Made by a program: the position numbers and the translations under genes. A stretch of DNA of 64,000 bases, taken from assembly GCF_012844235.1 (NCBI RefSeq), contig NZ_JABAGR010000003.1, forward strand, positions 124,001 to 188,000, given 5' to 3'. A model generated the notes under the pieces. The model was not told the origin of the DNA. It saw only the letters and a list, made by a program, of their open reading frames with translations, and ran no database searches. Every line of letters begins with the position of its first letter. Position 1 is the stretch's first letter. Origin of the DNA: Parafannyhessea umbonata. Its GTDB lineage: Bacteria > Actinomycetota > Coriobacteriia > Coriobacteriales > Atopobiaceae. This document shows, piece after piece, positions 8,028 through 58,194 of the stretch.

Positions 8028-8822
8028 TTGGAGCGAGGAGAGCTGAGGTCGCTGCTTGCGGCCGTGGCGGCGGGCGGTCTGTCCGTGGACGACGCGTGCG
8101 CGCGCCTGGGCGAGGCGCAGCTGGCGGGCCCCGGGTTCCGGGACCTGGGCTTTGCGAAGCCAGACGTGGGCCGCGGCGTGCGCCAGGGCGTGTCCGAGGT
8201 GATCTACGGCGCCGGCAAGACGGCGGGGCAGATCGCGGGCATCATGCGCGAGCTCGTGCGCTCCGGGCAAAAGCGCGTTATCGTGACGCGCTTGGACCCG
8301 CATAAGAGTGACGACCTGCGCGCGCTCCTCATGGCGCAGGGGCTGCGGATGGTGACGGGCTACCGCTACCACGAGGTCGCGCACATGGGCACGTGGGGCG
8401 ATCCGCCGGCGCCCAGCGGCCACGGTTACGTGCTCGTGGCGTGCGCCGGCACCAGCGACCTCTACTGCGCGGAGGAGGCGGCCCTCACGGCAACGATGCT
8501 GGGCAGCGAGGTGCGCCGCGCCTACGACGTGGGCGTCGCGGGCATCCACCGCCTGCTCGCCCAGGCGGACCTCATCCAGCGGGCGTCCGTGATCGTGGCC
8601 GTCGCCGGCATGGAGGGCGCGCTCGCGAGCGTGGTGGGCGGCCTTGCGGCGTGCCCCGTGATCGCGTGCCCCACGAGCGTGGGCTACGGCGCGTCGCTCG
8701 GCGGCGTCTCCGCCCTGCTCAGCATGCTCAACTCCTGCGCAAGCGGCGTGTCCGTCGTGAACATCGATAACGGCTTTGGGGCCGGCTACCAGGCCAGCCT
8801 CATCAACCACGTGGGGAGGTAG
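8028..8822 (+). CDS. larB: Nickel pincer cofactor biosynthesis protein LarB
   Basis: A 264-residue protein of the LarB family, related to PurE. LarB carboxylates and hydrolyses nicotinic acid adenine dinucleotide in the first step of the nickel-pincer nucleotide cofactor of lactate racemase and related enzymes. Supporting features are the N-terminal LGFAKPDVGRGVRQGVSEV region and the PurE-like C-terminal half with GMEGALASVVGGL and TSVGYGAS. The start is a TTG preceded by AGAGGTGG. The stop is two bases before larC. The LarE partner and a LarA-type racemase are not in the window. Confidence 0.9.
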   Translation: MERGELRSLLAAVAAGGLSVDDACARLGEAQLAGPGFRDLGFAKPDVGRGVRQGVSEVIYGAGKTAGQIAGIMRELVRSGQKRVIVTRLDPHKSDDLRALLMAQGLRMVTGYRYHEVAHMGTWGDPPAPSGHGYVLVACAGTSDLYCAEEAALTATMLGSEVRRAYDVGVAGIHRLLAQADLIQRASVIVAVAGMEGALASVVGGLAACPVIACPTSVGYGASLGGVSALLSMLNSCASGVSVVNIDNGFGAGYQASLINHVGR

Positions 8823-56409: not shown

Positions 56410-56625
56410 CTGCGATGCCGTGCCACGGGGCCGGCGGCGTGCGTTCCCAGGGCAACCATTATGCACGACGCTTGTGGTCTCCCCGTGTATGGCCCGCGCG
56501 GCCCGCACCTTGCGGGCGCTGCGGCAACGCCCGCTCAAATCTTGCGTGCCCACCCGCCCGCGTGACGCATAATTGGAACGGAAAAGCACCGCCCCGGCGA
56601 TCACCCGTCGTAAGGAGACCATGGC

Positions 56626-58194
56626 ATGAACAGCACGCACGCGACCCTGCAGAGCAACGACCTCTCCCGCGCCATCGAGGTGGAGGTGTACGGTGACGCG
56701 GGTCAGCCCGTCATCGTGCTGCCCGAGGGCGACTCCTCGTTCGCCAGCTGGTCGGAGGGCGGCATGATCGACGCGCTCGCCCCGCTCGTCGACTCTGGCA
56801 TGATGCGCCTGGTCTGCACGGACTCAGTCGACCTCATGGGCTGGTACTCGCGCTACGCCGTGCCGGAGTATCGCCTGTCAAACATCAAGAACTTCTTCAA
56901 GTTCGTCGAGAAGGACCTGCTGCCCTTCGTCGCAAGCACGTGCGGGGACGATCGCCCGCCCGTGCTTGCGGGCGCGGGTATGGGTGCGCTGAACGCGTGC
57001 GTGCTCATGCTGTCCCGGCCGCAGCTCTTCGGCGGGCTCCTCGCGCTGTCGGGCACGTACGACGCGCGCCGCTTCGTCGTGGGAGAGCTCCCGGAGGGCT
57101 GGGAGGACGTCTCCCCGGTCGACATGGTCCCCGCGCTTCCCCAGCGCGGCAAGGCAGTCCGCCTGCTCAGCGGCCTGCCGCTCGCGTTTGTCTGCGGCCA
57201 GGACGCAAGCGAGGACGGCATCGACACCCAGCGCGCGCTGGAGCAGGCGTTTGAAGACCGCGGCATCGACGCCACGTTCGAGTACTGGGGCTACGACGTC
57301 CGTCACGACTGGGAGTGGTGGCGCAAGGAGGCCGCCGAGATGCTCCCCGCGGTGCTCTCGCCGGAGGGTCTCGCGGACCGCAGGCTCAGCGCGTCGCTCG
57401 CCTACGCGGAGCGCGAGGCAAAGCACGCGGCCGCGCAGCTTGCGGACGCACAGGCACGCCTTTCCGCGGCGAACGACGCGCTGAAGATCGCGAAGCACGA
57501 CCTCGACGTCACCGCCAGGCGCGCAAAGCAGGAGGAGAAGAGCGTGACCACGTGCGGCGAGGCCGAGGCGGAGCTCGTGAAGGCCGCCCGCGTCGCATGG
57601 GCGGAGCGCGACCGCGTGGCGAAGCTCCTGCACGAGGCGGACTCCGCGGCAAACGATGCCCAGGCGAAGGCCGACGCAGCCACGAAGTCCCGCCGCGACG
57701 CGGAGTGGATCCTGGGCGAGGCGCGCGCGGCCGCATCGGCAGCCAGGGCCAACAACGAGGCCGCGCAGGAGTCCGTCGTGGCGTGCGAGGAGGAGGCCGC
57801 GGCTGCCACCAGGGAGGATGCGCTCGCACGCCAGCGCCTGGAGGACACCCGCGCCCTCATCGAGGAGGAGCGCTCCAAGGCGAAGGCCGCGGCGGAGCAT
57901 GCGCTCGAGCTTGCGCAGAAGCCAGCTACGAAGACGCCCGCCGCGAAGAAGCCAGCCGCGAAGACGCCAGCCGCGAAGAAGCCAGCCGCCAAGAGGACCA
58001 CGGCATCCAGGAAGCCGGCGGCGACCAAGAAGCCGGCAGCCGCCAAGAAGCCGGCGGCCACGAGGTCCGCGGCAACCAAGGCGCCTGCAACCAAGAAGCC
58101 GGTCGCGAAGACGCCCGCCGCCAAGAAGGCGCCCGCTCCCGCGAAGAGTGCGTCCGTCTCCGCTGGGAAGCCGGCCACCAAGCCCGCGGAGTAG
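56626..58194 (+). CDS. Esterase-like domain (nucleophile lost) with coiled coil and histone H1-like tail
   Basis: A 522-residue three-part protein. Residues about 1-240 match COG4947/esterase-type alpha/beta hydrolases, but the nucleophile elbow reads LAGAGMGALNA, with Ala where Ser or Cys is expected; the His-Asp block YDVRHDWEWW is kept. Residues about 250-430 are Ala/Glu/Lys-rich and predicted coiled coil. Residues about 430-522 are repeats of KKPAAKTPAA type, as in histone H1-like proteins. No signal peptide. The ATG follows TAAGGAG. It probably binds DNA, RNA or another polyanion through the tail. Confidence 0.8.
   Translation: MNSTHATLQSNDLSRAIEVEVYGDAGQPVIVLPEGDSSFASWSEGGMIDALAPLVDSGMMRLVCTDSVDLMGWYSRYAVPEYRLSNIKNFFKFVEKDLLPFVASTCGDDRPPVLAGAGMGALNACVLMLSRPQLFGGLLALSGTYDARRFVVGELPEGWEDVSPVDMVPALPQRGKAVRLLSGLPLAFVCGQDASEDGIDTQRALEQAFEDRGIDATFEYWGYDVRHDWEWWRKEAAEMLPAVLSPEGLADRRLSASLAYAEREAKHAAAQLADAQARLSAANDALKIAKHDLDVTARRAKQEEKSVTTCGEAEAELVKAARVAWAERDRVAKLLHEADSAANDAQAKADAATKSRRDAEWILGEARAAASAARANNEAAQESVVACEEEAAAATREDALARQRLEDTRALIEEERSKAKAAAEHALELAQKPATKTPAAKKPAAKTPAAKKPAAKRTTASRKPAATKKPAAAKKPAATRSAATKAPATKKPVAKTPAAKKAPAPAKSASVSAGKPATKPAE

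Follow-up and report, generated by a model that had tools for sequence, protein, structure and literature searches.

A PF00756-fold protein with a lost nucleophile serine, a conserved coiled coil and a lineage-variable basic tail in Parafannyhessea umbonata

What does a protein do that keeps the fold of an esterase and most of its catalytic residues, has lost the nucleophile, and continues into a long coiled coil and a basic tail that resembles histone H1? The question is raised by an open reading frame in the window, by which we mean the whole stretch of 64,000 nucleotides analysed here (G000:C21:124001-188000), taken from a genome of 2.3 Mb. The gene stands alone, flanked by a divergent HAD phosphatase gene (PF08282) on one side and a convergent gene for a membrane transport protein (PF03547) on the other. 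A second genome of the same genus (G002) also carries it. A preliminary description of this DNA proposed that alanine had replaced the nucleophile while the histidine block was kept, that the fold probably binds rather than cleaves, that the H1-like tail would bind DNA, RNA or polyphosphate, and that the protein may tether the nucleoid or storage granules. The order that it gave, namely esterase domain, coiled coil and basic tail, is indeed present in the encoded protein (Table 1).

Table 1. Positions of the features discussed in the text. Coordinates are those of the window, except for the glycogen synthase gene, which is given on its own locus.
Feature	Position	Strand	Basis
Open reading frame, 522 aa	56626-58194	+	exact bounds confirmed
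Ribosome-binding site AAGGAG, 8 nt 5' of the ATG	56612..56617	+	read from sequence
Pseudo-esterase head, residues 1-245; alpha/beta-hydrolase fold of PF00756	56626..57360	+	Pfam, AlphaFold2, PDB fold matches
Degenerate nucleophile elbow G116-A-G118-M-G120	56971..56985	+	alignment of relatives
Gly118 codon, at the catalytic Ser position	56977-56979	+	Gly in 27/28 orthologues
Glu196, retained; probably the triad acid of the ancestor	57211..57213	+	28/28 orthologues; acid role presumed
His227 of H-D-W-x-W-W, retained; catalytic His of the ancestor	57304..57306	+	25/28 orthologues
Long helical coiled coil, residues 246-431	57361..57918	+	AlphaFold2, heptad period, orthologue conservation
Basic tail rich in Lys, Pro and Ala, residues 432-522; disordered, differing between lineages	57919..58191	+	pLDDT, tail survey
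KPA-extended GlgA, own genome	L199:1334-3640 (G000:C26)	-	TIGR02095

The assignment of the head to the esterase fold draws on sequence profiles and on structure. Residues 10-241 match PF00756 with an E value of 8.2e-13 (49.1 bits, against a curated cut-off of 22), and AlphaFold2, for which the input consisted of 15 sequences from the window and from public loci, returns a confident alpha/beta-hydrolase model for residues 1-245 (pLDDT about 90). The closest solved folds are the feruloyl esterases 7xrt (Z 23.4 over 232 residues) and 5vol (Z 23.1); S-formylglutathione hydrolases and Ag85/MPT51 are also near (Z about 20-23). The fold is shared with these PF00756 esterases, esterase D among them, over residues 1-247 with an rmsd of about 3, and the His and acid positions are retained. 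Unlike them, the protein has Gly in place of the Ser nucleophile and carries the appended coiled coil and basic tail. Sequence identity to PF00756 esterases of known structure is only 11-21%, and a PDB sequence search with the head domain gave no match below E 0.2. MPT51/FbpC1 (1r88), whose fold is common with the head (Z 21.4, rmsd 2.7), is presumably a non-catalytic Ag85-like protein, and would then be a precedent for a PF00756 protein without catalysis. In contrast to the protein studied here, MPT51/FbpC1, which we take to be secreted and built of a single domain, lacks both coiled coil and basic tail. We take the orthologous group to be COG4947; titles and abstracts of the literature naming that group give no function.

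Which residue now occupies the nucleophile position? The Ser of GxSxG is absent from the protein, where the elbow reads GAGMG, as against GCSMG in relatives. Gly116 and Gly120 align with the glycines that never vary in the GxSxG motif, which puts the nucleophile column at residue 118, a glycine. The loss of the nucleophile thus stands, but its replacement by alanine does not: the alanine is the adjacent Ala117.

A search of 150 related genomes recovered two groups of related proteins. Clade A, to which the protein belongs, spans 31 genomes of gut-type actinobacteria, with 11 genera of a single family represented; it is aligned in 28 rows, has a mean pairwise identity of 51%, and forms a single clade (SH-aLRT 99) nested among Ser-bearing relatives. 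Clade B is about 30-40% identical to the query and includes a paralogue in the same genome. Compared with a 96%-identical orthologue (L112), dN/dS of the gene is about 0.10 in the head (dN 0.022, dS 0.213), about 0.22 in the coil (dN 0.055, dS 0.247) and about 0.29 in the tail (dN 0.23), which is the fastest-changing part. Since these ratios are low in all three parts, the gene is being maintained and is not decaying. One other clade A copy (L118; G056:C13, gene start near 8414) has a frame that breaks after about residue 260, with the coil motif resuming downstream in another frame, so that either the gene is disrupted there or the assembly is at fault.

The glycine is not a chance replacement, because purifying selection acts on the gene and 27 of the 28 orthologues share Gly118 at so low a mean identity. 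It is one of 49 among the 245 head columns that are conserved in at least 27 orthologues. Conservation is higher in the columns of the pocket motifs than elsewhere in the domain (0.78 vs 0.57, with motif windows picked by hand). His227 is present, as the preliminary description had it, and its column holds Pro (L121, L133) or Tyr (L128) in the three orthologues that lack the histidine; Asp224 and the W-x-W-W motif are found in all 28. Orthologues with an active serine and esterase activity would, on the earlier account, have counted against binding without cleavage. Serine was found once, in L133 of genome G027, and this lone Ser-bearing copy has Pro at the catalytic His. This pattern, with the Ser lost across the clade, pocket motifs under extra conservation and purifying selection persisting, makes binding without cleavage a well-supported inference; as judged from the sequences, esterase activity has probably been lost and pocket binding retained.

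The relatives outside clade A show other states of the same column. Clade B mostly has Ser, with Asp in 9 of 44 rows and Ala in 2, and at least seven changes are required on the tree. L139 and L143, the nearest sister group to clade A, combine Asp at this column with a KPA tail and no coil, and clade B proteins mostly carry long KPA tails without a coil. The own-genome paralogue (L002) likewise has a KPA tail and no coil, retains an intact GCSMG, and adjoins an ATP-grasp gene. Such a gene lies near 33 of 45 clade B loci, usually immediately downstream, as in Streptococcus (L034); clade A loci have no such partner. The pair of PF00756 esterase and ATP-grasp genes is found close together from Streptococcus to Coriobacteriales (L034:5001-6926, L140-L183). 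Gene neighbourhoods in clade A revealed no conserved partner or operon across genera, and a peptide deformylase-like gene cluster (named by eye) is upstream in 11 loci only. Asp at the nucleophile column with the His kept occurs in L139, L143, L156, L157, L158, L163, L166, L168 and L169 (GFDMG, GVDLG, GCDLG). Asp is the nucleophile of haloalkane dehalogenases and epoxide hydrolases, and these relatives could be Asp-nucleophile enzymes of that sort or further pseudoenzymes.

The coiled coil, like the glycine, is conserved in clade A. Helices are predicted at residues 246-331 and 337-431 in the full-length AlphaFold model; modelled alone, the region is helical again, but the break shifts to near residue 306-310. 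Averaged over the clade, hydrophobicity has its strongest period at 3.5 residues, the heptad value, in each of the two helices, and the alignment is nearly gap-free, with conserved W, G-E-A and A-D-x-A positions. A profile search with the coil alone found generic coiled coils only (tropomyosin, E 0.33), and Foldseek with the coil alone gave no match at E <= 0.001. Pseudo-esterase plus coiled coil is, by alignment, the conserved architecture.

Does the tail belong to it? Its 91 residues are 27% Lys and Arg, 34% Ala, 16% Pro and 1% Asp and Glu, and pLDDT (AlphaFold2) is below 50 from residue 438. The Histone H1-like HC2 model (PF07382) scores 15.2 bits on the whole protein and 18.8 on the tail alone, below its cut-off of 40. 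A tail of at least 30 residues is present in 15 of 26 scored clade A orthologues, the remaining 11 having 0-13 residues; it was gained or lost at least five times on the tree, and the DNA 3' of tail-less orthologues hides no tail in another frame. Where present, tails contain 0-5% Asp and Glu. With this variation, an H1-like tail as part of the conserved architecture has to be given up, and the earlier expectation that relatives share the tail holds for the 15 tailed orthologues and fails for the other 11. Because tails vary within clade A and occur without a coil in clade B, the tail is modular, and head and coil form the conserved unit.

How could such a protein have arisen, and how would it act? 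We favour, with evenly balanced confidence, a non-catalytic binding or scaffold protein of the PF00756 superfamily, with the tail as an accessory polyanion anchor. The starting point would be a duplicated copy of the esterase that elsewhere adjoins the ATP-grasp gene. Ser would have changed to Gly at the nucleophile position before the clade A orthologues diverged, with the pocket kept, and a coiled coil of roughly 165-185 residues would have been gained. The pocket may now bind a ligand or protein partner without cleavage, the coiled coil may oligomerise or space the heads, and the disordered H1-like tail, in some lineages, may fasten the whole to a polyanion, for which the nucleoid or RNA would be the simplest candidate.

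Some facts count against this reading: one orthologue, L133, bears Ser at the nucleophile position; Glu196 and His227 persist in most orthologues, a possible sign of residual or altered catalysis; and the helix break falls at different places in the two AlphaFold models, so that the coil could form a hairpin, a rod or an oligomer. Could the protein still be an enzyme, repurposed and not dead, in which pocket, Glu196 and His227 perform a Ser-independent reaction, as a lyase or by His-activated water? The constancy of Glu196 (28/28), Asp224 and W-x-W-W (28/28), the near-constancy of His227 (25/28) and the extra conservation of the pocket motifs all suit such an enzyme, as do the repeated Asp (9/44) or Ala (2/44) substitutions with His kept in the sister and B groups. 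Yet the clade A residue is Gly, and L121, L128 and L133 are without the His too; we consider such a repurposed enzyme unlikely. Lowest of all we place the idea that the protein regulates the active clade B paralogue by pairing or competing with it. The same genome does hold a paralogue of the family with intact GCSMG, and the two co-occur in many genomes; however, ten genomes, among them the single-contig assemblies G026, G038 and G069, have clade A but no clade B match, and searches for ATP-grasp in six of the ten (G008, G026, G027, G030, G038, G051) found none. As for the tail, it might have arisen by repeat slippage in G+C-rich DNA and be neutral or close to it, leaving only pseudo-esterase and coiled coil functional. 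It changes faster than any other part (measured against L112, its dN is 0.23 and that of the domain 0.02), has its five or more gains or losses, and is missing or tiny in 11 of 26 orthologues. Set against this are its near freedom from acidic residues, a dN below dS, and the recurrence of the same composition on paralogues and glycogen synthases; a neutral tail seems to us very improbable.

A storage-granule tether has known counterparts. The phasin PhaF joins a binding module, an oligomerising coil and a disordered tail of KPAA type that, in the model, wraps chromosomal DNA (PMC3574117), and AlgP, with a KPAA histone-H1-like disordered tail, sits on polyP granules (PMC9239181); both proteins use their tails, for which DNA binding is proposed, to position the granules (PMC3574117, PMC9239181). 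The protein studied here resembles PhaF in having a putative binding module, a coil and a KPAA-like disordered tail, and AlgP in tail composition. It differs from PhaF in that the binder there is an amphipathic helix and here an esterase fold, and in a coil of about 180 residues as against a zipper of about 22; from AlgP, which lies on polyP granules, it differs in that AlgP has only a helical N-terminal domain of 124 aa beside its tail. If head or coil sat on a granule of polyphosphate, PHA or glycogen while the tail held the chromosome, the overall logic would be that of PhaF (PMC3574117) and AlgP (PMC9239181), and the genome does encode PPK1 and a glycogen synthase carrying a KPA extension. 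PhaF, however, needs PHA, and no PhaC (PF07167) match was found in the genome, a Caulobacter control being positive. Nor do clade A tails track PPK1: of the genomes with tailed orthologues, 12 have a PPK1 match and 6 have none, and of those with tail-less orthologues, 10 have one and 1 has none (Fisher p 0.20 with kinship ignored, and in the wrong direction for a granule link), and the long tails of L115 and L117 (67-109 aa) belong to G028 and G049, both without a match. A literature search that combined polyP granules with Atopobium or Olsenella found nothing relevant. The granule half of the preliminary description is thus not borne out, and we hold a granule tether to be distinctly unlikely. 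Because the tails do not track PPK1, polyphosphate is improbable as their general target; DNA or RNA is the remaining candidate, and nucleoid tethering by the protein is possible.

Are such tails confined to this family? Our counts of KPA-bearing genes come from DNA patterns alone. The KPAAK pattern marks five genes in the genome: the open reading frame, its paralogue, a second glycogen synthase (TIGR02095, 552 bits) with a KPA-rich N-terminal extension of ~285 aa, and two genes with single matches. In several genera of one family a second GlgA has a KPA-rich extension at its N-terminus; in another family of the order, GlgA is extended in this way at the C-terminus. These K/P/A-rich extensions measure roughly 100-360 aa, being N-terminal in L199, L232-L242, L245 and L246, and C-terminal, mostly in the other family, in L202, L209, L219, L220, L223, L224, L226, L229, L243 and L244; a literature search on KPA-tailed glycogen synthase found nothing relevant. 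In this genome, one frame of L201 (G000:C23) reads by eye as a cytidylate-kinase-like part, a KPA-rich linker and an acyltransferase-like part, and a 388-aa open reading frame of L200 (G000:C22) has a K/P/A-rich stretch close to its end. The recurrence on glycogen synthases hints that KPA tails are a general localisation device here. It is a long shot, but in this order of actinobacteria the K/P/A tails on pseudo-esterase, active paralogue and GlgA may serve as a reusable address tag and gather these proteins on one nucleoid- or RNA-attached body scaffolded by the pseudo-esterase.

The known kinds that are varied at this locus are non-catalytic PF00756 proteins and PhaF/AlgP-like tails, and we infer the mechanism by which the protein would act as a conserved pseudo-esterase scaffold. 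The family offers a natural series for the change from enzyme to scaffold, from an active-looking copy beside an ATP-grasp gene, through Asp and Ala variants, to a clade in which Gly is fixed and a new conserved coiled coil is present. If the tail is an anchor, the idea developed for PhaF and AlgP, of H1-like tails positioning cell contents, would extend to actinobacteria and to glycogen synthesis.
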